Shown here: positions 6,541-24,425 of the stretch, one piece after another
Layout: each line of letters starts with the position of its first letter
Numbering within the stretch: the first letter of the stretch is position 1
Assembly (NCBI GenBank): GCA_947625125.1
Contig: CANQNF010000020.1
Span: forward strand, 1-51,861
Source: an uncultured Clostridia bacterium
GTDB lineage: Bacteria > Bacillota > Clostridia > Oscillospirales > Ruminococcaceae
DNA: 51,861 bases
Direction: 5' to 3'
Program-made: the position numbers and the translations under genes
Notes under the pieces: model-generated
Seen by the model: the letters and a program-made list of their open reading frames with translations, nothing else
Told to the model about the DNA's origin: nothing
The model's database searches: none

Positions 6541-6604
6541 AAATGCAGTGACAATGCGTGCGGCTTGAACGTGAAAAGCATGACAAAATAATTCCCCGCG
6601 GCAG

Positions 6605-6633
6605 TTGACAACGGGGAAAGAGTGTGTTATAAT
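6605..6633 (+). promoter_or_regulatory. Antisense-RNA promoter of peptide module A
   Basis: TTGACA (6605-6610), 17-nt spacer, TATAAT (6628-6633): a perfect consensus promoter reading rightward against the peptide gene. TTCCCCG and CGGGGAA flank the -35 box as an inverted repeat, also found in modules C and E. Confidence 0.75.
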
Positions 6634-6639
6634 AAAAGC

Positions 6640-6720
6640 GCAGAGAGCCGGATGGCTCGCCCTAATTACTTAGGTCAAAAAATAACCGTCGCTTTTGGAG
6701 AGCAGGGCGGTTATTTTTTT
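6640..6720 (+). ncRNA. Predicted antisense RNA of module A
   Basis: This RNA of about 80 nt begins near the GCAGAGAGCCGG block, forms a 5' GAGCC/GGCTC hairpin, and ends at the bidirectional terminator that overlaps the 3' end of the peptide mRNA. It contains no start codon with a plausible RBS. The role as antitoxin RNA is inferred from the convergent layout. Confidence 0.6.
6679..6720. terminator. Shared bidirectional terminator of module A
   Basis: AAATAACCG/CGGTTATTT stem with an A-run on the left and a T-run on the right, so it can end transcripts arriving from both sides. Confidence 0.75.
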
Positions 6721-6788
6721 ATGGTTTTAAATATCTCAAGGAGAATATAGGCAAGCAATATGTATAATATTAACTGCTCTATGGCCAT
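6711..6788 (-). CDS. Small hydrophobic peptide of a type I toxin-like module (copy A)
   Basis: This gene of 25 codons starts at 6788 (minus). The product begins MAIEQLILYI, has a single leucine/isoleucine-rich segment, and ends LLEIFKTIKK with a lysine tail, like membrane-acting type I toxins. Its SD lies in the GGGGGGA run, which is part of a CCCC-TTGAAA-GGGG hairpin that should mask translation. The sense promoter is consensus, and transcription meets the antisense RNA at a common terminator. The peptide is identical to that of copy E at 24209. Toxicity is an inference from size, hydrophobicity and layout; a leader peptide or small membrane regulator is the alternative. Confidence 0.7.
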   Translation of the reverse strand: MAIEQLILYILLAYILLEIFKTIKK

Positions 6789-6841
6789 AAAAATCCCCCC
6801 TTTCAAGGGGCGAGCCACCCTACCGGCTCTCTGCATGGAGT

Positions 6842-6870
6842 ATTATACCATAATTTTAGAGGCCTGTCAA
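6842..6870 (-). promoter_or_regulatory. Sense promoter of peptide module A
   Basis: Minus-strand TTGACA (6870-6865), 17-nt spacer, TATAAT (6847-6842); the transcript would begin close to the GCAGAGAGCCGG block near 6834. Confidence 0.75.
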
Positions 6871-7010
6871 CGGCGATGGCTGACTCAGATGTGTCCAAAG
6901 CGGCCGCATTTAAATAAAAAGGGAAAGGAAAGCGGTTAGTAACAGCAAATCATCATGCATGAATTTTTTATAATTTGCGCAAACCGGTCGCCCTCGGCCG
7001 ATCCTCCCAA

Positions 7011-7233
7011 AAACAAAGCACCCCACTTAGCCCCTCTTCAATAAGAAAACAAGCCCGCATAATCTGACTCAAAGCCGCCATCTTCTGTGTTAGCGGCTCT
7101 TGCATTCCACAAAGGAGTGCATGCGAGCCGCTGCCTTGAATCTGGCAGGTTTGAGCGATTATGCGGTGCTTCGCAGCGTCCGCTGGACGCTCTTGTTTTC
7201 TTATCTCAGAGGGGCTTTCCATGGCGTGCTTCT
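7011..7233 (-). repeat. Structured element of about 220 nt with 25-bp inverted ends (possible ncRNA or MITE-like insertion)
   Basis: The inverted ends (7029-7053 and 7192-7216) read AGCCCCTCT..AATAAGAAAACAAG and differ at only about three positions. Inside, GCATAATC/GATTATGC and CTCAAA/TTTGAG extend the stem, and three hairpins follow: AGCGTCC-AGC-GGACGCT, CTGCC/GGCAG and AGCGGCTC/GAGCCGCT. The whole forms a multibranched RNA or DNA cruciform. The outermost AAGCAC..CCA and TGG..GTGCTT arms plus TTTGTTTTT match the terminator at 24076-24110, so the element appears to sit in the loop of a related terminator downstream of the nucleotidyltransferase gene. I cannot assign it to a known RNA family. 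Reading frames inside it look spurious. Confidence 0.6.
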
Positions 7234-7340
7234 TTTTTATCAAATTAAATATTACTCACCGTTATAATTTCGGCTTTATACGCAGCCGCATGTCCCAAAA
7301 AATACTTTAAGTATAATTTGGCGTAGGGTCATGCCCCAAA

Positions 7341-8213
7341 TCAAAACAGCTTATCGGGGTAGACGCCCTTTTTGTGGAGCGCGAGGATGTTGGCCTCGGT
7401 GTCCGGCTTGTCCTCCTTGTAGGTGATGCCGTACCAGCGGTCCGTCGACGGCTTCGCCAGCATCTCCCAGCCCTTAGACAGCATCTCGTTGACCATCCCG
7501 GGCAGCAGGCACTCGCCCTTTATATCGGTATTCGCGCGCAGGAAATCCTCGAAATACTGCTCCATCGCGGGCAGGCTCTTCTCGGAAAATCCCCAGAAAT
7601 TCATCGAAACCTGTGCCTCGGGGTCGACCTCGCCGACGTCCGAAACGATTTTGCCGTCCTTGGGGATGATGCCGCCGGTCTCGGTGACGCTAACAAGCCT
7701 GCCGTTTTCGATTTTGCAGACGCCCCTCGTGACCCCGCCGTTTTCCGAGACGGTGTTTTTGAGGATGTAGGGCACCATCGCGCCGACTTTTTCGTTTAAT
7801 TTGGGCAGCATTTCGCGCATGATCTTAAAGCATTCTGCGCCGTAATAATCATCGGCATTTACCGTGACAAAGGGCTCCGTGAGATATTCTTTCGCGCAAA
7901 GTACGGCATGAGCAGTGCCAAGGGGCTTGGTACGCTCGGCCGGGACCTTGTACCAGTCGGGGACCTTGGTAAAGTCCTGGACGGCATAGCACACCTCGGC
8001 CTTGTCCTTTATTTTGTCGCCGACTTCGCGCCTGACGACGTCGACCATCTCCTCCTTGAGGATAAAAACTACCTTGTTGAAGCCGGCTTTGAGCGCGTCG
8101 TGGATGGAATATTCCATCAAAAATTCGCCGTTCGGGCCGACGTGAGCGATCTGCTTGTCGCCGCCGAAGCGCGAGCCGAGCCCGGCAGCCAGCACCAAGA
8201 GAGTTGATTTCAT
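7341..8213 (-). CDS. Sugar-phosphate nucleotidyltransferase (NTP_transferase family)
   Basis: Enzymes of this family make activated sugars (NDP-sugars) from NTP and sugar-1-phosphate. The start ATG at 8213 has AAAGGAG upstream and gives 290 residues. A longer frame start at 8303 would include the promoter and is rejected. The nucleotide-binding loop LVLAAGLGSRFGGDKQ is at the N-terminus, followed by a VNADDYYG metal-binding motif and a GGVTRG segment. The exact sugar and nucleotide cannot be told from motifs; it may be UDP-glucose or another capsule precursor, given the polysaccharide genes upstream. It has its own promoter, so it is probably a separate transcript from the LCP gene. Confidence 0.85.
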   Translation of the reverse strand: MKSTLLVLAAGLGSRFGGDKQIAHVGPNGEFLMEYSIHDALKAGFNKVVFILKEEMVDVVRREVGDKIKDKAEVCYAVQDFTKVPDWYKVPAERTKPLGTAHAVLCAKEYLTEPFVTVNADDYYGAECFKIMREMLPKLNEKVGAMVPYILKNTVSENGGVTRGVCKIENGRLVSVTETGGIIPKDGKIVSDVGEVDPEAQVSMNFWGFSEKSLPAMEQYFEDFLRANTDIKGECLLPGMVNEMLSKGWEMLAKPSTDRWYGITYKEDKPDTEANILALHKKGVYPDKLF

Positions 8214-8244
8214 AGCTAAGCTCCTTTCGGAAATTATTAACTTT

Positions 8245-8273
8245 ATCTTATCACTTTTTTTGCGGATTGTCAA
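8245..8273 (-). promoter_or_regulatory. Promoter of the nucleotidyltransferase gene
   Basis: Minus-strand TTGACA (8273-8268), 17-nt spacer, TAAGAT (8250-8245), about 32 nt before the start codon. Confidence 0.7.
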
Positions 8274-8357
8274 GGATAATTTGGAGAATTGCGGGCGCGC
8301 CAAAGGTATTGATGGGTTTGAATTTTTGGCATATTTAGTATAAATGCGCGACGCCGT

Positions 8358-8392
8358 GGCGGCATGATAAGCTAAAAAGCTTGCTCATCGCC
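8358..8392 (+). repeat. Conserved 35-nt hairpin upstream of module B
   Basis: GGCG..ATGA.AAGCT pairs with AGCTT..TCAT.CGCC around an A-rich loop. The same hairpin stands before modules C (13490) and D (13843). Confidence 0.65.
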
Positions 8393-8475
8393 GTTCGCGG
8401 TCAAAAACGACCGACCGCTCCGGCTCTGAGAGCTTTTTTCGCGTATCATAGCCCTCGAAAAGGGGGGTATGCGTG

Positions 8476-8598
8476 ATGAATGAGAATCTATACATCATTT
8501 TGATTATTCTTCTCGTTTTCTTGGAAATCATCCGTGAAATAAAAAAGCAACCGCCAGAGCATCCCAAAGCTAAGCGGTACTTTTTGTATCTGATTTAG
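8476..8598 (+). CDS. Read-through version of the small hydrophobic peptide (copy B)
   Basis: The product begins MNENLYIILIILLVFLEII and continues to the REIKK of copy D. The TAA that ends copy D is CAA here, so the frame continues through the damaged terminator to a TAG at 8598, giving 40 residues with an extra basic and aromatic tail. The SD AGGGGGG is paired with CCCTCG in a small hairpin. No good sense promoter is visible, and one terminator arm has decayed to ACCGC/GCGGT. I take this as a degenerating copy, although an altered functional peptide is possible. Confidence 0.5.
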   Translation: MNENLYIILIILLVFLEIIREIKKQPPEHPKAKRYFLYLI

Positions 8599-8624
8599 AC
8601 GGGTAGAGCCGTTCGGCTCTCTGC
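8560..8624 (-). ncRNA. Predicted antisense RNA of module B
   Basis: It starts near the GCAGAGAGCC block at 8624, with a 5' GAGCC-GAAC-GGCTC hairpin, and runs leftward into the 3' part of the peptide gene. Its terminator is weakened, so its length is uncertain. Confidence 0.45.
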
Positions 8625-8630
8625 AACATT

Positions 8631-8659
8631 ATTATAGCACACTCTTTCCCCGTTGTCAA
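8631..8659 (-). promoter_or_regulatory. Antisense-RNA promoter of peptide module B
   Basis: TTGACA (8659-8654), 17-nt spacer, TATAAT (8636-8631) on the minus strand, identical in core to those of modules A, C, D and E, even though the peptide side has decayed. Confidence 0.75.
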
Positions 8660-8673
8660 CTGTTTGAATGATT

Positions 8674-8702
8674 TTCCCCCGTCTAAATCTTAGGCGGGGG
8701 AA
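8674..8702 (-). terminator. Hairpin after the LCP gene
   Basis: TTCCCCCG and CGGGGGAA pair around an AT-rich loop about 45 nt past the LCP stop. The U-tract is modest on both strands. Confidence 0.5.
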
Positions 8703-8745
8703 TTTTACAGCGTGGAATTACTGCTTGGATAAATCTTTTAAAATA

Positions 8746-9807
8746 TTACTTATAGTATAGGCTCGTGACGAGCTCTCTGACCGCGTCCTCGTCGACGACC
8801 ATCGTCGGGGCGTCGTGCATGTCCTCGCCGTACTCGCCGTCGATGCGGTAAAAGCCCTTGAACGTGTAGTCGTAGGCGTTCAGGATCCACTTCGTGATGT
8901 CCTGCTTGCCCATGTCCGAAATCGTCGTGTCCATCATGTCGTCATAGAGATTGACAAGCTCTTTCGCCGTCATCGTCTCCTTGGCCTTTTGGATGAACGA
9001 TTCGCAGAACGCTATCTGCCTTGTCATGCGGTTTTCGTTGTAATAGCTGGTTTTCATGTTCTTGCGCGCACGGCAGAACGTCTCGGCATGTTCGCCTCTT
9101 AAAACCACCGTTTCGCCCATGACAAAGGTGTCGTCTACGCCGCTGAAGTCGTCCTCGATGAGCACCGGAACGCCGTCGACAGCGTCTGCGAGGGTAGAGA
9201 CCACCGAAAACGGGGCTGCGATGAAGCCTAAGAAAGGCACGTCGTCCCCTAAGAGCAGCTTGACCGATTTAAGAACGTTTCGGCCGCTCTGTCTCGTTCC
9301 GTCGCCGTAGGAGTAGGCGAGCGCTATCTGCTCGGTGACGAAGCCGTAGCTTTCGCCGATGTAGGAATAATTCTCGACCGGCACCGCCATGTCCCTGTTT
9401 ATCGAGATCAGGAAGTATTCTTTCGTCTTCATGTTCATCGACAGGACCATGATGACGTCCGACTGACCGGCGACGCGGTAGATGTCCTGTTCCTCCAAGA
9501 CCGGCCTGTCGACGCCGATGAGCAGGATATTTTTTATGTTATTGTCATAGGAGCCGTCGGCTTTCCATGTGGTCAGGTCCGCCTCGTCGACCGCTCCGTC
9601 CGGCCTGCCCTCGTCCTCGGGTATCTCAAGCTCGCCCGGTTCGTCGTCGGCTTGGGATTCGACGTCGGAGTCGTTTCTGTGCTTAGAGCCGTTTGACTTC
9701 TCGATCAGCTTTGCCGCGCCGAAAACGATGAGCAGGATCAAAACAAGGATGACCGCGAAGATGAGCACGTCGCGCTTTCTGAGCTTTTTCGGCGTTTTCT
9801 TCTTCAT
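8746..9807 (-). CDS. LytR-CpsA-Psr (LCP) family glycopolymer ligase
   Basis: LCP enzymes attach capsule or teichoic-type polymers to peptidoglycan on the outer face of the membrane. The 353 residues have a lysine-rich cytoplasmic start, one membrane segment (about 14-33), an acidic linker, and the LCP domain with NILLIGVDR, QSDVIMVLSMN, ISINRDMAVPV and the late RMTRQ motif, including the arginines and aspartates that bind the polyprenyl phosphate. It is the last gene of the capA-capB-LCP cluster, 18 nt after capB, so cotranscription is likely. Confidence 0.92.
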   Translation of the reverse strand: MKKKTPKKLRKRDVLIFAVILVLILLIVFGAAKLIEKSNGSKHRNDSDVESQADDEPGELEIPEDEGRPDGAVDEADLTTWKADGSYDNNIKNILLIGVDRPVLEEQDIYRVAGQSDVIMVLSMNMKTKEYFLISINRDMAVPVENYSYIGESYGFVTEQIALAYSYGDGTRQSGRNVLKSVKLLLGDDVPFLGFIAAPFSVVSTLADAVDGVPVLIEDDFSGVDDTFVMGETVVLRGEHAETFCRARKNMKTSYYNENRMTRQIAFCESFIQKAKETMTAKELVNLYDDMMDTTISDMGKQDITKWILNAYDYTFKGFYRIDGEYGEDMHDAPTMVVDEDAVRELVTSLYYK

Positions 9808-9825
9808 TCAAAACACCTGCCCTTA

Positions 9826-10536
9826 TCAGTAGCGGTATTCGGAGTTATACTTGTAATATTTGGAATATTTATACTTTCCGCCGTAGTGCGAATTCTCGCT
9901 TCCGACCTTGTTGAGCACGCAGCCCAGAACATTGGCCCCTACGCGTATAAGCTGGTTCTTGGCCTCGTTGACCTGGCGATAGTCGACCTCGTTTGCGGAC
10001 ACGACGATGATGGCTCCGCTGCAATTCGGGGCGATGATGGCCGCGTCGATAACTCGTCCGAGAGGGGGAGTGTCGATGATGATAAAGTCAAACGCTTTTT
10101 TCAGAACGTCGAGCATTGCGGTGAAAATTTTTCCCGAGAAAAGCGGAGTAGGGTTTAAAACATAGTTTCCGACCGGCAGCACATAGGCGTTCGGGATGTT
10201 GGTCTTATAGACCGCGTCGTTTATCTCGCCTTTGCCGGAGAGCACGTCCGCAAGACCGACAAGAGCAAGCCCGTCGTCAGCCTTTGCGCTATATCTTGCC
10301 GCAAAAACGGACTTACGCAGGTCGGCGTCGATGAGGAGCGTCTTGAGGCCGGCGTTCGCGTAGTTTCTCATCATCTCAAAGGATATGAGCGACTTGCCGG
10401 CGTTTTCGTCGACGGATGTTATGCAGATAAGCTTTACGCCCTCGCCCGAATAGGAGACGTTGGTCCTTAAGACGTTCATAGCCTCGCTCATCTCGTAGCT
10501 CGGTTCTTTAGCGACGTTGACGGTTATGCTTCTCAT
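9826..10536 (-). CDS. Tyrosine-protein kinase domain of a split BY-kinase (CapB/CpsD type)
   Basis: This cytoplasmic ATPase autophosphorylates on a C-terminal tyrosine cluster and regulates polysaccharide chain export. Visible are Walker A (SVDENAGKS), Walker A' (TLLIDADLR), Walker B (FIIIDTPPL) and a C-terminus with about eight tyrosines (HYGGKYKYSKYYKYNSEYRY). The 236 residues fit the CapB form, whose membrane activator is a separate chain. Its ATG overlaps the stop of the upstream capA-type gene by 4 nt, so translation is probably coupled. Confidence 0.93.
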   Translation of the reverse strand: MRSITVNVAKEPSYEMSEAMNVLRTNVSYSGEGVKLICITSVDENAGKSLISFEMMRNYANAGLKTLLIDADLRKSVFAARYSAKADDGLALVGLADVLSGKGEINDAVYKTNIPNAYVLPVGNYVLNPTPLFSGKIFTAMLDVLKKAFDFIIIDTPPLGRVIDAAIIAPNCSGAIIVVSANEVDYRQVNEAKNQLIRVGANVLGCVLNKVGSENSHYGGKYKYSKYYKYNSEYRY

Positions 10537-11423
10537 TTCTGCTCACCTCCGTTTTTGGGTCCCTCGGGTTTTTTCGGGGTATGCTGGCCGTTTTTGGCTT
10601 TGACCTCAGACCGGGAGCGGCTGCCGTAGCCGTATCCGTAGCCATAGCCGTAGCCTCCGTAGCCGTATCCGTAGCCTTTCTTCTTTTTGCCGCCCTCGTA
10701 GTAGACCTTGGTAAGAGTTACCATGCCGCAGCGCTGTTCGATATCCTCGGCAGTCTTGACGGTGGTGTCCATGACCGCGATGAAGATGATAACGCCGGCC
10801 GCTAAAACTGCGCCCAGAACGAACGCGATGACGACGGTCTTGGTAAGGCTCGGGAAACTCGGGTCCTCGGCCGCGATGGCGTAGTCGTAGATGTAAGGCA
10901 CCGAGACCTCCATGATCATCGAGATCTGCTCAACGGCATAGGTCGTGAGGTTGTTGGCGATGTTCTTGGCGAGCTTGGGGCTCGGGTCGGTGACGGTTAT
11001 CTTTATGATATGAGTGTCGGTCGGGTTGACGACGTCGACATTCTCGTAGAGCTCTTCGTAGGTGTATTCCAGCTCCATCTCGGAGATGATGTGCTCCAAA
11101 AGGGAGCGGGACTTGATGATGTCAACATAGTCGGGAGCAATGTTGGACGAAAGCTGAATATCGGCGAGGGACAGAAGCGAGTCGTTGGCCGAAACCAGAT
11201 AGACGGAGGTGGTGGAGGTGTAAAGGGGAGTGATAAAGAACTGGCAGACGATACCTGCGCCGAGGGCGAACAGAAGCGCCACGGCGATGATGATAAGGAT
11301 GTGTCGTCTTAAAGCGTTGAACAAAAGGAGCAGGTCTATTTCCTGGGTCTCCTCCTGAGCTCCCCCGGCGACGGTGTTGCGCTTTGCGAGTAAGCCGTCG
11401 GACTGGATTTCTTTTTCGTTCAT
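10533..11423 (-). CDS. Wzz/CapA-type polysaccharide co-polymerase, activator of the kinase
   Basis: The start ATG at 11423 has GAGG upstream; a start 21 nt earlier has none. The product is 296 residues. Two membrane segments bracket an extracellular Wzz domain: one near residues 42-64 and the second near 205-228 with the usual proline-containing lead-in (EDPSFPSLTKTVVI). The C-terminal cytoplasmic tail has a striking Gly-Tyr stretch (KKGYGYGYGGYGYGYGYGYG) followed by an Arg/Ser/Lys-rich end. Such a Tyr-rich tail on the activator, in addition to that on the kinase, is unusual. It is followed by the kinase and LCP genes in one unit. Confidence 0.9.
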   Translation of the reverse strand: MNEKEIQSDGLLAKRNTVAGGAQEETQEIDLLLLFNALRRHILIIIAVALLFALGAGIVCQFFITPLYTSTTSVYLVSANDSLLSLADIQLSSNIAPDYVDIIKSRSLLEHIISEMELEYTYEELYENVDVVNPTDTHIIKITVTDPSPKLAKNIANNLTTYAVEQISMIMEVSVPYIYDYAIAAEDPSFPSLTKTVVIAFVLGAVLAAGVIIFIAVMDTTVKTAEDIEQRCGMVTLTKVYYEGGKKKKGYGYGYGGYGYGYGYGYGSRSRSEVKAKNGQHTPKKPEGPKNGGEQK

Positions 11424-11449
11424 AAATACCTCAAAAATCTGCACTTATT

Positions 11450-11481
11450 GAAATCAGCAAACCGATGGGCTTGCTGATTTC
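11450..11481 (-). terminator. Hairpin between the surface-protein gene and the CapA gene
   Basis: GAAATCAGCAA pairs with TTGCTGATTTC (11 bp, 10-nt loop). There is no strong U-tract on the minus strand, so it may be a partial terminator that lets the upstream transcript reach the capsule genes. No separate promoter is obvious in this 95-bp gap. Confidence 0.55.
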
Positions 11482-11518
11482 ATTAGGTTTGTTTTGTTTT
11501 GTCAATTCGTCCGATGAA

Positions 11519-12229
11519 TTATCTTCTCTTGGAGATGACGGCTGCAGCGGCAGAAACGATCATCGGGATGACTGCGAGAGCAACACCGGTGCCAGGGTTC
11601 TTTTCCTCGGCAGCGGGAGCCTGAGCCTCGGGCTCGGGAGTAGTCTCGGTGTCTTCCTCAGCGTCGACCTCGGGAGCGTCGCCATCGTCAACGTTCTCGG
11701 ACTCTTCTTCGTTCTCAGTGCCCTGCTGCGGGTTGTCAACATCGGTAACATCCCACTTGTCAACGATAGCAATGTAGTGCCACTGGTTGAGGACGCCTGC
11801 GGGAGCAGAGATGGTGGCGCGGTCGCCGTTTACAACGACGGAAACGTTAGGAAGAACTTCCCAACCGTCGCGGACGATAACTACGCTGCTGGCGGAAGCG
11901 CCGGGAGCATAAACGTCAATGTTGACCATTTCGGTGTCGGCAACAGCAGAGTTGATGCTGATGTAGTAAAGGCCGATAACACCGGCAGTCTTGATCTCAT
12001 CATAAACAGCACCGGAGGACAGGGTGTCAACAGAAGCAGACAGCGGAAGTCCGGAAGCGGTAGTAGCATTGAAGGTGTACTTGCTGACGCCGGCGGAACC
12101 GGTGTAAGAAGCAGAGCCGGTAGAACCAACAGGAGCGTCGCCGGTCGGGCTGTTAGGAGCAGCGAAAGCTACTACAGTGAGAGAAAGGGTCAGGCAAAGA
12201 GCCAGGACGAATGCAAGAATTTTCTTCAT
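11519..12229 (-). CDS. Cell-wall-anchored surface protein with NPGTG sorting signal
   Basis: The start at 12229 (MKKILAFVLALCLTLSLTVV) gives a clear signal peptide; upstream in-frame codons lie across the promoter. The product is 236 residues. The mature part is a small beta-rich domain of about 130 residues rich in Ser, Ala, Val and Asp, then an acidic Glu/Asp/Pro linker (about 150-205). The end is NPGTG, a hydrophobic segment and KRR, the layout of a sortase substrate with an NPxTG variant of LPxTG. No sortase gene is in the window. It lies between the phosphatase and the CapA gene of the polymer locus, so it may share their regulation. The function is unknown. Confidence 0.85.
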   Translation of the reverse strand: MKKILAFVLALCLTLSLTVVAFAAPNSPTGDAPVGSTGSASYTGSAGVSKYTFNATTASGLPLSASVDTLSSGAVYDEIKTAGVIGLYYISINSAVADTEMVNIDVYAPGASASSVVIVRDGWEVLPNVSVVVNGDRATISAPAGVLNQWHYIAIVDKWDVTDVDNPQQGTENEEESENVDDGDAPEVDAEEDTETTPEPEAQAPAAEEKNPGTGVALAVIPMIVSAAAAVISKRR

Positions 12230-12346
12230 GAGTAATTCCCCACTTTCATTTACGTTTTTTTGAAATTCTTCGGAACATTTTTCGGTTGTCCCTACCGCGA
12301 ATTCATTTCGCACGGCCAAACCATGCCCCGAAGTGAATCCACCGTT

Positions 12347-12375
12347 ATGATACACCAAAACCGCGGATAAGTCAA
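12347..12375 (-). promoter_or_regulatory. Promoter of the NPGTG surface-protein gene
   Basis: Minus-strand TTGACT (12375-12370), 17-nt spacer, TATCAT (12352-12347), about 118 nt before the start codon. Confidence 0.6.
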
Positions 12376-12514
12376 GAGCTTAAAGCAAATTTCTGAGAAT
12401 TTCGTCAAAGTCTCCAAATATTAGGCCGAGTTTTGATGTGAAATGTTCAAAATTGTTTATGAATTTACGCCGATAACAGCGTTCTGCCGAAAAATGCCGT
12501 ATTTAATAATCTAT

Positions 12515-13489: not shown

Positions 13490-13524
13490 GGCGGCATGAT
13501 AAGCTAAAAAGCTTGCTCATCGCC
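13490..13524 (+). repeat. Conserved 35-nt hairpin upstream of module C
   Basis: Same imperfect hairpin as at 8358 and 13843. Here it is preceded by an intact GCAGAGAGCC block at 13478-13487, suggesting a fused older module end. Confidence 0.65.
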
Positions 13525-13525
13525 G

Positions 13526-13554
13526 TTGACAGGCTCATGAAATTATGATATAAT
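13526..13554 (+). promoter_or_regulatory. Sense promoter of peptide module C
   Basis: TTGACA (13526-13531), 17-nt spacer, TATAAT (13549-13554); the transcript starts near the GCAGAGAGCC block at 13562. Confidence 0.75.
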
Positions 13555-13604
13555 GTCCACAGCAGAGAGCCTGCGGTTCGTCCCTCCGAAAGGAGGTGCG
13601 CTTT

Positions 13605-13682
13605 ATGACTGTCGAAGAATTGATACTTATCATTATATTGGCATTTATCGTTCTTGAAATTTTTAAGACCATAAAGAAATAA
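13605..13682 (+). CDS. Small hydrophobic peptide of a type I toxin-like module (copy C)
   Basis: The product has 25 residues, starting MTVEELILIIILAF and ending LEIFKTIKK. It is related to copies A and E, but with different N-terminal residues and many synonymous changes, so the peptide itself appears to be under selection. The SD AAAGGAGG is enclosed in a perfect CCTCC-GAAA-GGAGG hairpin. Sense and antisense promoters are both consensus, so this copy appears intact. A toxin role is inferred, not shown. Confidence 0.7.
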   Translation: MTVEELILIIILAFIVLEIFKTIKK

Positions 13683-13753
13683 CCGCCGGCGTCTGACAAA
13701 TGCGGCGGTTTTCTTTTTAACTACCAATTTCGACGAGCCGTTCGGCTCTCTGC
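13668..13753 (-). ncRNA. Predicted antisense RNA of module C
   Basis: It begins near GCAGAGAGCCGAACGGCTCG (5' hairpin) and ends at the CCGCCG/CGGCGG stem, where minus-strand U-rich sequence follows. It overlaps the peptide mRNA only in the terminator. Confidence 0.6.
13681..13717. terminator. Shared bidirectional terminator of module C
   Basis: AACCGCCG (13681-13688) pairs with CGGCGGTT (13703-13710), followed rightward by TTCTTTTT and leftward by a U-rich tract. Confidence 0.75.
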
Positions 13754-13759
13754 ACTTTT

Positions 13760-13788
13760 ATTATAGCACATACTTTCCCCGTTGTCAA
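13760..13788 (-). promoter_or_regulatory. Antisense-RNA promoter of peptide module C
   Basis: TTGACA (13788-13783), 17-nt spacer, TATAAT (13765-13760) on the minus strand; TTCCCCG/CGGGGAA flank the -35 box. Confidence 0.75.
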
Positions 13789-13842: not shown

Positions 13843-13877
13843 GGCGGCATGATAAGCTAAAAAGCTTACTCATCGCC
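13843..13877 (+). repeat. Conserved 35-nt hairpin upstream of module D
   Basis: One base differs from the copies at 8358 and 13490 (GCTTACTC for GCTTGCTC). A TGCTTGAGCC degenerate block precedes it. Confidence 0.65.
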
Positions 13878-13957
13878 GTTCGCGGTCAAAAACGACCGAC
13901 CGCTCCGGCTCTGAGAGCTTTTTTCGCGTATCATAGCCCTGAAAGGGGGTATGCGTG

Positions 13958-14032
13958 ATGAATGAGAATCTATACATCTTTTTGATTATACTTCTTGTCT
14001 TTTTAGAGATCATCCGTGAAATAAAAAAGTAA
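13958..14032 (+). CDS. Small hydrophobic peptide of a type I toxin-like module (copy D)
   Basis: The product has 24 residues: MNENLYIFLIILLVFL, then EIIREIKK. The N-terminus differs from the A/C/E type, but the hydrophobic core and lysine end are kept. The SD GGGGG pairs with CCCT around GAAA. An out-of-frame ATG seven bases upstream opens a 4-codon frame (MRDE) that overlaps the start and could couple translation. The terminator and antisense promoter are intact, but no consensus sense promoter is visible, as in copy B. Confidence 0.65.
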   Translation: MNENLYIFLIILLVFLEIIREIKK

Positions 14033-14109
14033 CCGCCAGTGCTCGCCAAAGCTGGGCGGTTGCTTTTTTGCAATTTGTTTAGTATAAGGTAAGCCGTTCT
14101 GCTCTCTGC
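14020..14109 (-). ncRNA. Predicted antisense RNA of module D
   Basis: It starts at the GCAGAGAGCAGAACGGCTTA block and runs to the shared terminator at 14031-14069. Confidence 0.55.
14031..14069. terminator. Shared bidirectional terminator of module D
   Basis: AACCGCC (14031-14037) pairs with GGCGGTT (14055-14061), with TTTTTT on the right and the complement of an A-run on the left. Confidence 0.75.
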
Positions 14110-14115
14110 ACTTTT

Positions 14116-14144
14116 ATTATAGCACACTCTTTCCCCGTTGTCAA
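14116..14144 (-). promoter_or_regulatory. Antisense-RNA promoter of peptide module D
   Basis: TTGACA (14144-14139), 17-nt spacer, TATAAT (14121-14116) on the minus strand. Confidence 0.75.
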
Positions 14145-18118: not shown

Positions 18119-18157
18119 CCGCCGTCCCGGGGAAAGCCTCCGGGACGGCGGGTTTTT
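18119..18157 (+). terminator. Terminator of the pyruvate oxidoreductase gene
   Basis: CCGCCGTCCCGG pairs with CCGGGACGGCGG and is followed by GTTTTT. Confidence 0.85.
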
Positions 18158-18188
18158 AAGAAATAGAAAAGCAAATCAAGCACAGAAA

Positions 18189-18224
18189 ATCCGCGCCTAA
18201 TCCCTTTGAAGGATCGACGCGGAT
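18189..18224 (-). terminator. Hairpin after kdgK
   Basis: ATCCGCG and CGCGGAT pair about 46 nt beyond the kdgK stop, followed on the minus strand by TTTCTG, a weak U-tract. Confidence 0.55.
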
Positions 18225-18270
18225 ATTTTAGAATATATGTAAGAGCGCCATTGGAATTTACTGTGCTGTG

Positions 18271-19293: not shown

Positions 19294-19405
19294 GATATTT
19301 CCTCCTGTAAATTATTGTTTTTTGCGTGACAAACCTAAAAGCCGACGGACGGGCGCTCCCGGGCTCCTGCTCCTATCAGGGCCTTCCGCTGAGCTGTAGT
19401 GCCCG

Positions 19406-19494
19406 CAGGGGGGGAAGCCCTCGCCGCATGCGGCGTGCCGGCCCGAAAGGGCCGGCGGTCCGCGCCTTTGGCGCGGACAGGGCTTCCTGCCCCC
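19406..19494. repeat. GC-rich cloverleaf palindrome, copy 2
   Basis: GGGGAAGCCCT and AGGGCTTCCTGCCCC form an outer stem enclosing three perfect hairpins: CGCCGCATGCGGCG (19422-19435), CCGGCCCGAAAGGGCCGG (19438-19455) and one built on GTCCGCGCC/GGCGCGGAC (19458-19478). It lies between eda and kdgK. Confidence 0.7.
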
Positions 19495-19689
19495 GGTCGA
19501 GACGAGCGCCCGCTTCGGCTGCGGGTACACGCGGGAAGTCGGTCGGCGAGCAGCTGCGGTCGGCGGCAATCGCGCATGCCCGCCGTGTGCCTCCTGCGGA
19601 AAATTTGCATGCTTATTCTTTACCGTCTGCGCGGACGGGCGAGCAGGGCTTCGGGCCCTGCCGCACCGCCTGCAAGTCCTCCCGCTTGC

Positions 19690-19785
19690 GGCCCCCGGAA
19701 ACCCCTCCCCGCGCCCACGGGCGCGGGGAGGCCGAGCCGCAGGCTCGGCTGTCCGACGAAGTCGGACGGGGATTTCCTCCCCGTC
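19690..19785. repeat. GC-rich cloverleaf palindrome, copy 3
   Basis: GGAAACCCC (19697-19705) and GGGGATTTCC (19768-19777) form the outer stem around three hairpins: CTCCCCGCGCCC/GGGCGCGGGGAG, GCCGAGCCGCAGGCTCGGC and GTCCGACGAAGTCGGAC. More hairpins (e.g. GCAGGGC-TTCG-GGCCCTGC near 19645) fill 19500-19690. Confidence 0.7.
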
Positions 19786-19808
19786 GGCGAGAGTGCGCCC
19801 GCCGGCAG

Positions 19809-20567
19809 TTATTTCTTAACGAGTTTAACCTTTTCGCATTCAAAGCCCACGGCTTTAAGATAGCCCTCGGCCCTCTCGACGCTGTTGACCCCGAGGACGA
19901 CGCCGCCTGCGGAGATCTCCTTGACCTCGAAGCCCTGGGCGGCCATGACGGCGGCGCGTGTGAGCTTTTCGATGCCGTCCCAATCGCCGGCGTCTATCAT
20001 GTCCTTTTTGACCATCCATGTCCCGCCGCAGGCGATTATCTTTTCAAAACTTAAGTACGACGAAATATTATTTTCATTTACCCCGCCGGTCGGCATGAAT
20101 CTCAGCTTCTGATAGGGCGCGGATACCGCCTTAAGCTTCGCAACGCCGCCGTTTTGCTCGGCAGGGAAGAATTTGACGATATCAAGGCCTAAGCTCATCG
20201 CCTGCTCCATCTCTCCCGGGGTCGCCGTTCCGGGCATGATGACCGCGCCGACCGAAATGGCATATTTTACAATTTCCGGATTGAAGCCGGGCGTGACGAT
20301 GAATTCCGAGCCGGCCTCCAATGCGCCGTCGACCTGCTCTTTTGTCAGGACCGTGCCCGCGCCTACAAGCATTTCCGGGACCTCGGTGCGGATTTTTCTG
20401 ATGGCTTCGGCCGCGCAGGCTGTTCTGAAAGTGATCTCGGCCGCGGGAAGCCCTCCGCGACAGAGCGCCTTTGCGAGCGGCACGGCGTTCTCAACGTCGT
20501 TTATCGCGATGACCGGCACCACTCCGAGCGCCTGTATTCTTTTTACTATTTCATCCTTTTTGCTCAT
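19809..20567 (-). CDS. eda: KHG/KDPG aldolase with C-terminal extension
   Basis: It splits KDPG into pyruvate and glyceraldehyde-3-phosphate, the last step of the hexuronate route. The TIM-barrel features are clear: PVIAINDVE, AAEITFRTACA with the catalytic Glu, VGAGTVLT, FIVTPGFNPEIVKYA, the Schiff-base lysine in GLDIVKFFPAE, and MPTGGVNENN. The aldolase domain ends near residue 210, whereas the chain is 252 long. The extra 40 residues (GFEVKEISAGGVVLGVNSVE onward) look like part of a VOC/glyoxalase-like fold, perhaps a shortened version of a longer fusion. SD GGAGG precedes the ATG. Confidence 0.92.
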   Translation of the reverse strand: MSKKDEIVKRIQALGVVPVIAINDVENAVPLAKALCRGGLPAAEITFRTACAAEAIRKIRTEVPEMLVGAGTVLTKEQVDGALEAGSEFIVTPGFNPEIVKYAISVGAVIMPGTATPGEMEQAMSLGLDIVKFFPAEQNGGVAKLKAVSAPYQKLRFMPTGGVNENNISSYLSFEKIIACGGTWMVKKDMIDAGDWDGIEKLTRAAVMAAQGFEVKEISAGGVVLGVNSVERAEGYLKAVGFECEKVKLVKK

Positions 20568-20585
20568 GATAAACCTCCGTGTATA

Positions 20586-20807
20586 TCATTTAATATAGTT
20601 GACGAATTTTTCCGGCCTCAGCTCGCAGTAAACCGTGGTCTGAGGCTCCCCGAGCCGGTCTACCCAACTGTCATAGGCTATCTCTGCCTCGTCGAAACCG
20701 AGCTGCCGGTAGACGTGCCGGGCGCGCTTATTTCGGTAGTTTGTCCCGAGGGCGATTTTTTCATATCCCCGCGAAAAAAGCTCCTCTATAAGTAACTCAA
20801 GGGTCAT
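20586..20807 (-). pseudogene. 5'-truncated GNAT acetyltransferase remnant
   Basis: The 74-codon frame from the ATG at 20807 encodes only the end of a GNAT domain: LLIEELFSRGYEKIALGTN, then NKRARHVYRQLGF and a short tail. The N-terminal half and the acetyl-CoA loop are missing. Immediately upstream lies the composite G-rich repeat (20840-21095), which may have replaced the rest. GGGAGG is suitably placed before the ATG, so a short product might still be made. It lies 18 nt before eda on the same strand, downstream of the promoter at 21117-21145. Confidence 0.65.
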
Positions 20808-20877
20808 TTCAACGCCTCCCGAAAAATTTCTGCGCCGCCATGCGGGGGACACCTCCGGTTTCCCCCCCTGCGCCCCT

Positions 20878-21090
20878 TTCCGACAAGGTATTCGCCGGCT
20901 TCGCGGCTCATGCTCTTTTAAACACCCCCACCCCCGGCAAGCCCTGCGCAGACCCTCGGCCGGCGGCCGCCCCCTCCCCCTTGAGGGGGAGGGGGCCCGG
21001 GGGAGGGGGAGGCTTTGAAACAGCATGAGCGAGCGGGCGGAAGCTGTGTGCAATATCGAGCCCGGGCGCGAGCGAATACCTTTTACCCCC
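20878..21090. repeat. Composite G-rich repeat, two inverted halves
   Basis: The left half is GGTATTCGC...GGCTCATGCTCTTTTAA followed by C-rich DNA; the right half is G-rich DNA followed by TTGAAACAGCATGAGC...GCGAATACC. The centre has CCCTCCCCCTTGAGGGGGAG and a canonical G-quadruplex motif at 20985-21009 (G5-A-G5-CCC-G5-A-G5). Confidence 0.7.
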
Positions 21091-21116
21091 CGGCGGGGCG
21101 CCCCGTTATCCACTAA

Positions 21117-21145
21117 ATTATACATTATAACCCCCGTAAAGTCAA
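21117..21145 (-). promoter_or_regulatory. Leftward promoter for the eda-side transcript
   Basis: Minus-strand TTGACT (21145-21140), 17-nt spacer, TATAAT (21122-21117). It is divergent from the uxuA promoter, with 52 bp between the two -35 boxes. Confidence 0.6.
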
Positions 21146-21171
21146 CGTCCCGAGGCGGCATAAATGTCAAA

Positions 21172-21190
21172 TTGCAAGAAAAATATGCAA
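21172..21190. promoter_or_regulatory. Possible operator between divergent hexuronate promoters
   Basis: TTGCA (21172-21176) and TGCAA (21186-21190) form an inverted repeat between the two -35 boxes, placed so that one regulator could act on both transcripts. No regulator gene is adjacent. Confidence 0.3.
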
Positions 21191-21197
21191 ATAACGC

Positions 21198-21226
21198 TTG
21201 ATTAAAGCGCCAAGGCGTGATATTAT
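21198..21226 (+). promoter_or_regulatory. Promoter of uxuA
   Basis: TTGATT (21198-21203), 17-nt spacer, TATTAT (21221-21226), 36 nt before the uxuA start. Confidence 0.6.
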
Positions 21227-21261
21227 CATATTAAGAACATTTTTCTGAAAGGATGATAGAT

Positions 21262-22344
21262 ATGAAAATGACTTTCCGATGGTTCGGCTCGAAAAGCGAC
21301 TCCGTTACCCTTGAGCAGATAAGGCAGATCCCCGGCATGACCGGCGTTATGGGCTTTTTGGATTATAAGGCCGCAGGCGAGGTCTGGACCGAGGAGGAGA
21401 TAAAAAGCTATATCGACGAGGTGCATGCCGCGGGTCTTGAGTGCGAGGTCATTGAGAGCGTAAACGTCCACGAGGATATAAAGCTCGGCCTGCCCACAAG
21501 AGATGAATATATCGAAAACTACCGCATTACCATCCGCAACCTTGCAAAATACGGCGTTAAGGTCATCGTTTATAATTTCATGCCGGTGCTCGACTGGCTC
21601 CGCACCGACCTTGCAAGGCCCAACCCCGACGGCTCTACTTCGATGTACTACGACGAAGCCGAACTCGGCACGCTTTCCCCAATCGATATAGTCAAAAGGA
21701 CCGCCGACAACTGCAACGGATTTTCTCTGCCGGGCTGGGAGCCCGAAAGGCTTGCAGACCTTGAAAAAGTCCTGAAATTATATGAAAACATCGATGAGGA
21801 AAAACTCCTTGAAAATTACAAGTATTTCCTCGACGGCATAATCCCGACCTGCGAGGAGTGCGGCGTCGTCATGGCATGCCACCCCGACGACCCGGGCTGG
21901 AAAATTTTCGGCCTGCCGAGACTTGCCCACGACCAAGAGGGCTACGACAGGATAATCAAGCTTCACGACAGCCCCTCCAACGCCATCTGCCTCTGCACCG
22001 GCTCGTTCGGCTCGAATGTAAATAACGACGTCCCCGCCGTAATCCGCCACTTCGGAAAAATGGGCAGGATAGGCTGTCTGCATGTGCGAAATCTTAAGCA
22101 TTTAGGCAGCGACCGCTGCTTCTGCGAAAGCTCTCACCTAAGCTCCGACGGCGACCTCGATATGTATGAGATAATGAAAGCGATACACGAGGTCTGTCCC
22201 GACGCGTATATAAGGCCCGACCACGGCAGGATGATATGGGGCGAAGTCGGCAGACCCGGCTACGGCCTTTACGACCGCGCTCTCGGGGCATGCTATTTGA
22301 ACGGCCTTTGGGAGGCCATTGTCAGACAGTCGGAGGACAGATAA
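21262..22344 (+). CDS. uxuA: Mannonate dehydratase
   Basis: It dehydrates D-mannonate to 2-keto-3-deoxygluconate in glucuronate catabolism. The ATG at 21262 lies 8-9 nt after GAAAGGA and gives the usual start MKMTFRWFG; the in-frame ATG at 21253 overlaps the SD. The product is 360 residues, the normal length. Family features are visible: [20 protein letters not shown] with metal-binding His/Asp, CLCTGSFG, and the C-terminal [13 protein letters not shown]. The downstream uxuB-like gene, 120 bp away, supplies the substrate, and the divergent kdgK and eda use the product. Confidence 0.95.
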
Positions 22345-22464
22345 TCGGACGTCAGAATTGCTGCAAAAGGTGCGGCGGACAACAGCCGTATGTTTTTCCG
22401 CTTAGTCCGCAGCCGCGTTCTGAATTTTTGCAGCATATGTAAATCCCGAAAGAAGGTAAGAAAA

Positions 22465-24063
22465 ATGAAACTCAACATCGCCTCATTAAAAGATAAAACC
22501 GCATGGGAAGCCGCAGGAATAAAGCTTCCGGAATACGATATAAAATCGGTCGCGGAAAGGACCGCCGAAAGCCCGATGTGGCTCCACTTCGGCGCCGGCA
22601 ATATTTTCAGGGGGTTCATCGGCTCCATCCAGCAAAGGCTTCTGAATCAGGGCCTTTCAGACCGCGGTATCATCGCCGCCGACACTTTCGACTATGAGAT
22701 CATCGACAAAATCTACAAGCCGTTCGAAAACCTGACCCTGAACGTAAGCCTGAATCCCGACGGGTCGACCGACTGCGAGGTTTTGGGCTCGGTCGTCGGC
22801 GCATTAAAGGCCGATTGCACAGATGAACGGGAGATGGCGGAATTCAAGAGGATTTTCGCTTCCCCGTCGCTTCAGATGGTAAGCTTTACCATTACCGAAA
22901 AGGGTTATGCCGTAAAAACGACCTCGGGAGAGCTTATGCCCATAGTGACTGCCGACATCGAAAACGGCCCCGAGAAGCCCCGCCACGCGATGAGTTTTGT
23001 CGCGGCCATGCTCCTGCACCGATATAACACCTGCAAAACTCCTTTGGCAGTCGTTTCTATGGACAACTGCTCCCACAACGGCGAAAAGCTCAAAAACTCG
23101 GTAGTCACCGTCGCCAAGGCATGGGTCGAAAAGGGGTATGCGCCTGCCGAGTATCTTGAATATATCGAAAACGGCGTATCGTTCCCCTGGTCGATGATAG
23201 ACAAAATAACCCCGAGGCCGGCAAAATCCGTCGAGGAAAAGTTAAGCGCGCTCGGAATCGACGATATATCGCCCATCATCACCTCGAAAAACACCTATAT
23301 AGCGCCCTTTGTCAACGCCGAAAGGCCGGAATATCTCGTCATCGAGGACGACTTCCCGAACGGCCGTCCGCCCCTTGAAAAGGCGGGTGTGTATCTTACC
23401 GACCGCGACACCGTCAACAAGACAGAGCGGATGAAAGTCACGACATGCTTAAACCCCCTGCACACGGCGCTTGCGGTTTACGGGTGCATGCTCGGCTACA
23501 CGCTTATCTGCGAGGAAATGAAAGACGGGGAGCTTGTTCGGCTCATCAAAAAATTAGGCTATGAGGAGGGCCTGCCGGTCGTCACCGACCCCGGCATCAT
23601 CAGCCCGAAAGCCTTTATCGACGAGGTCGTGAACGAGCGCCTGCCGAACCCGTTCATGCCCGACGCGCCCCAGAGGATAGCGACCGACACGTCTCAAAAG
23701 GTCGGCATCCGCTTCGGCGAGACGATAAAAAGCTACGCCGCAATGGGCAGGGCGAATGAGTTGACCGCGATACCGCTTGCAATTGCGGGGTGGCTGAGAT
23801 ACCTCTTAGCCGTCGACGATGATCTGCAAAAAATTGACGTATCCTCAGACCCGCTGAAAGACGAATTGCAGGCAAAGCTTTCGTGCATTGAGATCGGCCG
23901 ACCCGAGACTGTCGGCGAAAAGCTGCGGCCGATACTTAAAAACTCGGCGATTTTCGGCTCAGACCTCTGCGAAAACGGCCTTGCGGATAAAATCGAGGGG
24001 TACTTTAAGGAACTCATCTCCGGCCGGGGAGCGGTAAGGGAGACCCTCAAGAGGAATTTATAA
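22465..24063 (+). CDS. uxuB: Mannitol dehydrogenase family oxidoreductase, probable fructuronate reductase
   Basis: The start at 22465 has AAGAAGG; the frame open from 22390 has no RBS. The product is 532 residues. The N-terminal Rossmann region shows WLHFGAGNIFRGF, and the C-terminal mannitol-dehydrogenase domain has SFPWSMIDKITPRP and CLNPLHTALAVYG with the catalytic lysine/histidine region typical of long-chain polyol dehydrogenases. UxuB reduces fructuronate to mannonate. Adjacency to uxuA makes this role likely, although a related hexuronate or mannitol reductase cannot be excluded. A strong terminator follows. Confidence 0.88.
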   Translation: MKLNIASLKDKTAWEAAGIKLPEYDIKSVAERTAESPMWLHFGAGNIFRGFIGSIQQRLLNQGLSDRGIIAADTFDYEIIDKIYKPFENLTLNVSLNPDGSTDCEVLGSVVGALKADCTDEREMAEFKRIFASPSLQMVSFTITEKGYAVKTTSGELMPIVTADIENGPEKPRHAMSFVAAMLLHRYNTCKTPLAVVSMDNCSHNGEKLKNSVVTVAKAWVEKGYAPAEYLEYIENGVSFPWSMIDKITPRPAKSVEEKLSALGIDDISPIITSKNTYIAPFVNAERPEYLVIEDDFPNGRPPLEKAGVYLTDRDTVNKTERMKVTTCLNPLHTALAVYGCMLGYTLICEEMKDGELVRLIKKLGYEEGLPVVTDPGIISPKAFIDEVVNERLPNPFMPDAPQRIATDTSQKVGIRFGETIKSYAAMGRANELTAIPLAIAGWLRYLLAVDDDLQKIDVSSDPLKDELQAKLSCIEIGRPETVGEKLRPILKNSAIFGSDLCENGLADKIEGYFKELISGRGAVRETLKRNL

Positions 24064-24075
24064 AAATTGATAAAA

Positions 24076-24110
24076 AAAGCACGCCATGAAGAATGGGGTG
24101 CTTTGTTTTT
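24076..24110 (+). terminator. Terminator of the uxuAB transcript
   Basis: AAAGCAC-G-CCAT pairs with ATGG-G-GTGCTTT around GAAGA, followed by GTTTTT. Nearly the same outer arms surround the structured element at 7011-7233. Confidence 0.85.
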
Positions 24111-24126
24111 GGGGGGAGATCGGGCG

Positions 24127-24155
24127 TTGACATGCTCTTTGAATTATGATATAAT
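24127..24155 (+). promoter_or_regulatory. Sense promoter of peptide module E
   Basis: TTGACA (24127-24132), 17-nt spacer, TATAAT (24150-24155); the transcript begins near the GCAGAGAGCCGG block at 24163. Confidence 0.75.
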
Positions 24156-24208
24156 GTCCATAGCAGAGAGCCGGTAGGGTGGCTCGCCCCTTGAAAGGGG
24201 GGATTTTT

Positions 24209-24286
24209 ATGGCCATAGAGCAGTTAATATTATACATATTGCTTGCCTATATTCTCCTTGAGATATTTAAAACCATAAAAAAATAA
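24209..24286 (+). CDS. Small hydrophobic peptide of a type I toxin-like module (copy E)
   Basis: This 25-codon gene encodes the same peptide as copy A (MAIEQLILYI...EIFKTIKK), and its DNA from the GCAGAGAGCC block to the terminator is nearly identical, so one copy arose recently from the other. The SD in GGGGGGA is masked by a CCCC-TTGAAA-GGGG hairpin. Both promoters are consensus and the terminator is shared. The IS481-like element lies just beyond its right end. Confidence 0.7.
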   Translation: MAIEQLILYILLAYILLEIFKTIKK

Positions 24287-24321
24287 CCGCCCTGCTCCGC
24301 TAAAAGCAACGGTTATTTTTT
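24281..24321. terminator. Shared bidirectional terminator of module E
   Basis: AAATAACCG (24281-24289) pairs with CGGTTATTT (24310-24318), with A-run and T-run on opposite sides. Confidence 0.75.
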
Positions 24322-24360
24322 ATAACCCAATATTTTAGGGCGAGCCATCCGGCTCTCTGC
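24281..24360 (-). ncRNA. Predicted antisense RNA of module E
   Basis: It starts at GCAGAGAGCCGGATGGCTCG near 24360 and ends at the shared terminator. Its 5' end is the same as that of the peptide mRNA except for the hairpin loop (GGAT here, GGTAGGGT in the mRNA). Confidence 0.6.
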
Positions 24361-24366
24361 ACTTTT

Positions 24367-24395
24367 ATTATAGCACATACTTTCCCCGTTGTCAA
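24367..24395 (-). promoter_or_regulatory. Antisense-RNA promoter of peptide module E
   Basis: TTGACA (24395-24390), 17-nt spacer, TATAAT (24372-24367) on the minus strand; the TTCCCCG/CGGGGAA inverted repeat surrounds the -35 box. Confidence 0.75.
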
Positions 24396-24425
24396 CTGCT
24401 GCGGGGAATTATTTTGTCTTTCGAC

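Follow-up and report, generated by a model that had tools for sequence, protein, structure and literature searches.

Convergent small-peptide modules with matching RNA 5′ ends in Clostridia: a candidate type I toxin–antitoxin family

Five small modules, A to E, are encoded on contig CANQNF010000020.1 of an uncultured Clostridia bacterium of the Ruminococcaceae (assembly GCA_947625125.1, 3.17 Mb in 101 contigs); the whole contig, C20 of this genome and 51,861 nucleotides (nt) long, is referred to here as the window. In each module a short hydrophobic open reading frame (ORF) faces an antisense promoter, and an intact copy probably represents a type I toxin–antitoxin unit, or at least a unit in which a membrane peptide is silenced by an antisense RNA. 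What the DNA offers for this assignment is a short hydrophobic ORF, selection on its coding sequence and a putative gene for a cis-antisense RNA. An earlier reading of the same letters made without database searches (the sequence-only reading) had proposed a type I toxin–antitoxin family; the layout and the coding selection support it in part, with transcription, toxicity and neutralisation as its postulates. A further property, not part of that reading, is that both RNAs of one module begin alike.

Promoters, terminators and the peptide frame

The antisense promoters of all five modules are perfect TTGACA-17-TATAAT sequences with TG ahead of the second hexamer (5/5), and equally perfect sense promoters were confirmed in A (6870, −), C (13526, +) and E (24127, +). 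Twelve perfect promoters of this form occur in the window, eight of them at module ends, and 50 first-order Markov sequences of window length contained none; those outside the modules lie at 33069 (−), 33181 (+), 1363 (−) and 45205 (−). Across the genome, the promoter followed by GCAGAGAGCC gave 16 matches and a reversed-pattern control gave none. Both promoter types keep their own sides in these 16 matches, and the idea of an inverting cassette was dropped.

Modules A (6605–6870), C (13526–13788) and E (24127–24395) are complete, combining the two perfect promoters with a 25-codon hydrophobic ORF, a Shine–Dalgarno (SD) sequence and a stop-codon hairpin flanked by U-runs on both sides, that is, a terminator common to both RNAs. 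Such a bidirectional terminator, previously claimed for four copies, was located in A, C, D and E. B and D retain the ORF and the antisense promoter, and no sense promoter was recognisable in them (best score 7–7.5 on the analysis's own scale). The single 40-residue peptide noted earlier has that length in B because CAA stands in place of the stop codon and the frame continues across the terminator. The count of five modules stands in the sense that all have an ORF and an antisense promoter; the left ends formerly given to B and D, 8358 and 13843, are the first bases of a dispersed structured repeat. These two of the five modules look decayed.

For wider comparison a set of 60 modules was assembled, 41 from the genus of this bacterium (the host genus) and 19 from outside it. 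At least 11 of the 12 hexamer positions are kept by 39 of 41 antisense and 34 of 41 sense promoters within the host genus, and by 10 of 19 and 7 of 19, respectively, beyond it; in the latter group the antisense promoter is stronger than the sense promoter in 10 modules, equal in five and weaker in four (n = 19).

The peptides, mostly 20–28 residues long, have a hydrophobic stretch and, after it, an amphipathic end such as LEIFKTIKK. Three subtypes were distinguished (MxxEQLILYILLAYILLEIFKTIKK, MEELILIIILAFIVLEIFKTIKK and MNENLYIILIILLVFLEIIREIKK), besides more distant forms such as MESVWQVILLLILLEILKTIKK. All 48 distinct peptides hold a hydrophobic 15-mer (best mean Kyte–Doolittle value 1.99–3.39), and the last 11 residues are amphipathic in 45 of them (moment at least 0.66). 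The ratio of non-synonymous to synonymous change (dN/dS; Nei–Gojobori, last 20 codons up to KK) was 0.058 in subtype T1 (15 distinct DNAs), 0.066 in T2 (9) and 0.091 in T3 (12), with higher values of 0.157 in genus g216 (6 distinct DNAs) and 0.275 in genus g64 (7). No excess of synonymous change was found in the other two frames, for which T1–T3 only were analysed. The peptide frame is under purifying selection: the sequence-only reading had made equal synonymous and non-synonymous change the finding that would count against it, and the three subtypes, at 0.06–0.09, show a conserved frame.

The predicted antisense RNA ends on the last codons of the peptide, its U-tract being the complement of ATA-AAA/AAG-AAA/AAG-stop. 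Ahead of KK, isoleucine is encoded by ATA in 57 of 59 modules, compared with 93 of 309 other isoleucine codons in the same ORFs, and the lysine codons would thus double as the U-tract of the antisense terminator. The antisense RNA measures about 73–119 nt (median 86; approximate start sites, g114 left out), and the peptide messenger RNA (mRNA) of E about 160 nt. Full complementarity between the two is confined to the shared terminator, where the duplexes predicted for the 12 copies of this genome average −84.7 kcal/mol for cognate pairs (range −77 to −93) and −48.0 kcal/mol for non-cognate ones. This cognate advantage follows from the overlap of the RNAs in that region, yet it also reveals divergence of the loops from copy to copy.

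These elements suggest a mode of action. One promoter would yield a peptide mRNA whose SD is folded into a hairpin, and the convergent promoter an antisense RNA ending on the last codons of the peptide, in which the shared start, X, folds on a complementary arm, Y. Because X folds on Y in the antisense RNA, the X of the mRNA could pair with the antisense Y, and an mRNA with a Y of its own could enter a mutual exchange. First contact might be made between the complementary terminator loops and then extend to the 5′ ends, leaving the mRNA locked untranslated or exposed to RNase III. If some trigger caused the antisense RNA to fall, the peptide would enter the membrane and slow or kill the cell.

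Matching 5′ ends of the two RNAs

The 5′ ends were compared in 43 of the 60 modules; the other 17 were omitted since a promoter was unplaced in the searched span, the record ended or, for L070, by hand. In this set, 41 of 43 antisense RNAs had a predicted 5′ hairpin of z below −1 (mean −1.96), and 40 of 43 SD sequences were predicted to be paired, with a mean P of at least 0.6.

Both RNAs of a module mostly start alike, and the start sequence differs between lineages. In the host genus, CAGAGAGCC lies within the first 16 nt of both RNAs in 19 of the 27 modules tested, and the remainder carry start variants, some of them common to both RNAs, as is CAGAGAGCUG in L049 and L050. By eye, the ends read ACAGGGACACC or ACAGGGAUACC in g64, GGUGUUACC in g114, CAGUCCGGC or GGCACUG forms in g216, and AGCAAGAGAG, GAAAAGG or CAAAAGRGG forms in the class-level lineages. 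When leader and antisense 5′ end were aligned locally in the same sense over eight lineages, the mean score was 28.1 for cognate pairs against 13.6 off the diagonal, the own partner ranking first in seven of eight rows; the cognate score was reached by 0 of 20,000 permutations with at most eight modules per lineage and by 1 of 20,000 with all modules. Leaving out g114 gave 27.7 against 14.0 and 3 of 20,000, roughly as often as the true order would come up by itself among the permutations. Among the 27 host-genus modules the cognate mean was 26.1, against 23.0 over all permutations and 24.2 ± 0.5 over those within subtypes (0 of 20,000 each, from related copies that are not independent). The two 5′ ends, judged by these alignments, evolve in concert.

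The likeness lies far more in identity than in complementarity, with diagonal sums of 230 and 117 for the cognate pairs, matched by 0 and 184 of 20,000 permutations, respectively, a comparison made with no par locus as a yardstick. Since the 5′ sequence is able to fold back on itself, the ends are also complementary to some extent, and the best predicted 5′ duplex between sense and antisense RNA joins X with Y, plus Y with X where both are present. With one module per lineage, this duplex was predicted at −19.5 kcal/mol for cognate pairs and −16.5 ± 1.0 kcal/mol for permuted ones (20 of 20,000).

A second type of small ORF, represented by MTLTEVLLLLELLFSVMFHLFDLWSDNHKRK and a variant of it, was encountered in the same layout in L057, L058 and L059 (G014, G009 and G006; about 1100–1500 of each), with no Pfam match found for it. 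Both RNAs of these loci start with GACAGAAGAG by eye, and the region of the stop codon is similar (ACCATAAAAGAAAATAACCGCC). This suggests that the layout with shared 5′ ends may serve more than one peptide family.

It is possible, and put forward tentatively, that these ends reflect a new mode of antisense recognition, in which the same 5′ sequence on both RNAs would act as a module-specific barcode, read by strand exchange on its hairpin. Each lineage would have changed the barcode on both RNAs together, which would keep many near-identical peptide modules under separate control, and the layout would serve more than one peptide family in Clostridia. Our confidence in this barcode, already less than even, was lowered slightly because 12 of 27 host-genus mRNAs lack the second arm (GGYUC, present in 15) and four of eight lineages have their own antisense RNA as best duplex partner.

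Several observations weigh against the toxin–antitoxin assignment, the barcode or both. B and D are incomplete, 19 of the 31 host-genus species lack the peptide, which is therefore dispensable, and its toxicity is argued by analogy. Antitoxins are usually in excess, whereas the antisense promoter in the host genus is stronger than the sense promoter in 12 modules, equal in 16 and weaker in 13 (n = 41). As to the 5′ ends, the 17 omitted modules do not enter the tests, the antisense start of g114 was placed by eye, and the mRNA start of f36c is closer to the antisense RNA of another lineage than to its own. Unpaired 5′ tails are also common to both RNAs, which pairing does not explain; where the mRNA lacks the second arm, only half of the arm exchange would be possible; and within the genus the advantage of cognate duplexes is weak (923 and 888 of 20,000 permutations).

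An explanation that competes with the barcode, and that we give a comparable minority share of our confidence, is that the 5′ likeness stems from gene conversion between inverted repeats or from a third factor binding both RNAs, with silencing achieved by the terminator overlap alone, as in the 3′-overlapping TxpA/RatA pair; it is compatible with the toxin–antitoxin assignment. The shared unpaired tails, the missing second arms, the best partner being the own one in only half of the lineages, the weak duplex edge within the genus and the already very stable cognate terminator duplexes favour it. Conversion should, however, carry the adjacent promoter spacers along, yet these 17-nt spacers are unalike (mean identity 0.32, n = 26, fixed alignment), whereas the best transcribed 10-mers are 92% identical (n = 42) compared with 63% across lineages. 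Plain gene conversion is disfavoured because the spacers differ and the transcribed starts agree, the two measures not being equivalent. The shared stretch, by eye, also stops before the SD hairpin, and cognate 5′ duplexes are on average the stronger ones between lineages.

It is rather unlikely, in our judgement, that the modules encode harmless or useful membrane micro-proteins, acting for instance in signalling or stress response, for which the convergent RNA would be ordinary antisense control with no toxin involved. The syntenic modules of six g216 genomes and of a host-genus site common to six species behave like resident genes, and the host-genus sense promoters are as strong as the antisense ones, all of which this explanation would accommodate. 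On the other hand, sequestration of the SD, a terminator common to both RNAs and a very short peptide of hydrophobic and basic character together form the known type I layout (PMC7472228, PMC6563280), and multicopy arrays with decayed copies fit a toxin history. Selfish or mobile repeats resembling miniature inverted-repeat transposable elements, with incidental promoters and ORF and with the identical ends as terminal inverted repeats, are very improbable: multiple copies, tandem arrays (C4, C23), several intergenic sites and GCAGAGAGCC at both ends of most copies in this genome are what they would predict, but the ends that match sit inward of the promoters and change together, unlike the spacers, the coding selection is strong, sites are conserved across species, and blastn of module E found nothing in plasmid and phage collections.

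Spread, chromosomal sites and a dispersed repeat

This genome holds 12 copies of the peptide, five in the window, two on C4, three on C23 and one each on C9 and C69, as expected of the chromosomal, multicopy family proposed earlier. A module remnant with the terminator and antisense side only, its ORF start lost, was seen at about 4801–5000 of L011 (G000:C4:97800-98000). Within the host genus, 16 of 31 species gave a DNA match and 12 of 31 a match to the peptide profile. The family sample yielded 12 matches in 396 genomes (six in the host genus and six others, of which four, in g64 and g114, were read as modules and two as chance) and the order sample 10 in 394 (four in the host genus, the remaining six all belonging to genus g216). 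In the class sample, 6 of 391 genomes matched, namely this genome and five more, three with modules, one cut by a contig end and one without; the phylum sample gave 2 in 378, this genome and one weak match in which a scripted scan found no ORF of this kind. The G1121 match runs off its contig, and the profile matches in G346, G392 and G877 were inspected and rejected for want of a module. These counts are lower bounds, because of overlap between the samples and the low sensitivity of a profile of 23 residues. Modules thus occur in several genera of the family, order and class, in line with a Clostridia family.

All six g216 loci lie between a gene starting MNGFLPISKQ, which we take to be a YgiQ-type protein, and one starting MLDGTRKFSLVDE, presumably IreB-type. 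The host-genus site common to six species (L039, L041, L043, L046, L048 and L052; one flank only in L048) carries different peptide subtypes. Carriage as phage or plasmid cargo was rejected, a blastn search with module E having matched none of 72,556 plasmid and 50,697 phage records, and as far as these records and sites indicate the modules are not recent cargo.

In the window (Table 1), the gaps holding the modules sit among ordinary chromosomal genes: B adjoins a LytR-CpsA-Psr gene, C and D lie near CpsB/CapC and pyruvate:ferredoxin oxidoreductase genes, and E is flanked by a mannitol-dehydrogenase family gene and a transposase (24541–25512, +; helix-turn-helix and rve integrase core domains). 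Further along, a 2995-residue ORF (36083–45070, −) with many near-identical GSLKIVKSVVGGG-type repeats and, near its end, an NPATG motif and a hydrophobic stretch presumably encodes a giant surface protein.

Table 1. Positions of the features of modules A to E in the window
Module	Feature	Position	Strand
A	Antisense-RNA promoter, TTGACA-17-TATAAT	6605..6633	+
A	Predicted antisense RNA 5′ hairpin (GCAGAGAGCC..GGCTCGCC)	6640..6661	+
A	Shared bidirectional terminator; antisense U-tract on Lys codons	6686..6720	both
A	ORF MAIEQLILYILLAYILLEIFKTIKK	6711..6788	−
A	Peptide-mRNA 5′ element, then predicted SD-sequestering hairpin	6810..6834	−
A	Sense promoter, perfect	6842..6870	−
B	Leader: dispersed 93-nt structured repeat; sense promoter upstream not recognised	8358..8450	+
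B	ORF, 40 residues, stop lost (CAA)	8476..8598	+
B	Predicted antisense RNA 5′ hairpin	8602..8624	−
B	Antisense promoter	8631..8659	−
C	Sense promoter, perfect; repeat half copy just upstream, ~13493-13528 (by eye)	13526..13554	+
C	Peptide-mRNA 5′ element; predicted SD hairpin then to ~13595	13562..13582	+
C	ORF MTVEELILIIILAFIVLEIFKTIKK	13605..13682	+
C	Shared bidirectional terminator	13680..13720	both
C	Predicted antisense RNA 5′ hairpin	13732..13753	−
C	Antisense promoter	13760..13788	−
D	Leader: dispersed 93-nt structured repeat; sense promoter upstream not recognised	13843..13935	+
D	ORF MNENLYIFLIILLVFLEIIREIKK	13958..14032	+
D	Shared bidirectional terminator	14025..14069	both
D	Antisense RNA 5′ region	14090..14109	−
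D	Antisense promoter	14116..14144	−
E	Sense promoter, perfect	24127..24155	+
E	Predicted peptide-mRNA 5′ hairpin (GCAGAGAGCC..GGCTCGCCCC)	24163..24190	+
E	Predicted SD-sequestering hairpin	24187..24202	+
E	ORF MAIEQLILYILLAYILLEIFKTIKK	24209..24286	+
E	Shared bidirectional terminator	24284..24322	both
E	Predicted antisense RNA 5′ hairpin (GCAGAGAGCC..GGCTCGCCC)	24338..24360	−
E	Antisense promoter	24367..24395	−

The 93-nt repeat, present in the window as two copies and a half copy, is predicted to fold into a long hairpin with conserved internal loops, supported by compensatory double changes in 10 of 33 pairs counted and a covariation score of 0.259 against 0.092 ± 0.012 in shuffles; a whole-window Rfam scan found no match for it at gathering. 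In the host genus, a covariance search at E ≤ 0.1 gave 416 matches, spread over 15 of 31 genomes with up to 86 in one. The repeat lies in the leader of 13 of 41 host-genus peptide modules and is present in all 12 peptide-carrying species compared with three of the 19 others. The idea that the B and D leaders act as a switch or attenuator of the toxin mRNA was dropped in view of the 416 matches; 20 of them away from known modules (about 0.6–0.9 kb each) were inspected, and the peptide motif was found in none. Given these numbers, the element is best regarded as a dispersed repeat that entered some leaders.

Comparison with known systems

Eight peptides had no Pfam match at E ≤ 10, four had no NCBIfam match above cut-off, and the whole window had no Rfam match at gathering, so that a known Rfam RNA was rejected. 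Below gathering, module E scored 17.0 bits to BsrG (gathering 55, E 0.05) and the antisense strand of module C 26.8 bits to ohsC_RNA (gathering 50, E 0.04); the two lists of sub-gathering matches have no family in common, BsrG being unlisted for C. Among 20 members of set A3 searched against PHROGs, matches to phrog_5315 (two, E 0.21), the holin phrog_920 (one, 0.012) and phrog_9177 (one, 0.013) were set aside as compositional. Six peptide strings were not mentioned in the literature of the open library. The peptide family thus appears to be undescribed, as judged from that literature and from Pfam, NCBIfam and Rfam, with PADLOC not searched.

Such a family, short enough to evade routine annotation, would be an addition to the few type I systems of Clostridia; it occurs in genomes of uncultured rabbit-gut bacteria as well as in further genera of the class. 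The series of lineages with co-changed 5′ ends would allow a clear test of the way in which the antitoxins of paralogous type I modules are kept separate, and the last codons of the ORF would double as terminator of the RNA by which it is probably controlled.

TxpA/RatA and BsrG/SR4 of Bacillus subtilis likewise pair a hydrophobic peptide with a 3′-overlapping antisense RNA, their toxins being longer; module E differs from BsrG/SR4 in its score, far below the gathering threshold. AapA/IsoA of Helicobacter pylori offers peptides of 22–30 residues, several paralogous copies and a structured toxin mRNA, but in a different phylum, and is likened here by description only.

The closest layout is that of par of pAD1, which has convergent promoters, a short antisense RNA (RNA II, about 40 nt), a shared bidirectional terminator, an SD-sequestering stem-loop and, at the 5′ ends, a further site of interaction (PMC7472228). 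The resemblance to par/Fst suggested by the sequence-only reading holds at the level of DNA and predicted structure: convergent promoters and a bidirectional terminator are shared with the Fst-Ldr group, the SD is likewise predicted to be sequestered, and terminator loops and 5′ ends would provide two contact sites, as in par. Membership of the Fst family was nevertheless rejected, the earlier view that the peptide is unlike Fst being upheld by the PXXXG motif in 0 of 48 distinct peptides, Trp in 4 of 48 and the absence of a PF13955 match. PF13955 was not found in this genome at E ≤ 10, in a search that lacks a positive control because 14 control genomes also gave no match over cut-off; in the class, a single genome of 291 had a match at E ≤ 0.01, which fell short of the cut-off and lay within a frame of 535 codons. 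The predicted antisense RNA here is longer than RNA II, and the 5′ sites of par, as described in that source, are DNA direct repeats read oppositely into complementary RNAs, whereas both RNAs here would mostly carry the same 5′ sequence.

Within Clostridia, the nearest counterparts are CD2517.1-RCd8, CD2907.1-RCd9 and CD0956.2-RCd10 of C. difficile, which form several modules per genome with convergent, overlapping RNAs, long RNA complementarity and small membrane proteins of 50–53 residues as toxins (PMC6563280). The present modules resemble them in their class, in the convergent arrangement of the putative toxin and antitoxin RNAs and in their number per genome, and differ from them, as they are described there, in the shorter peptides and in a full complementarity that is limited to the terminator.

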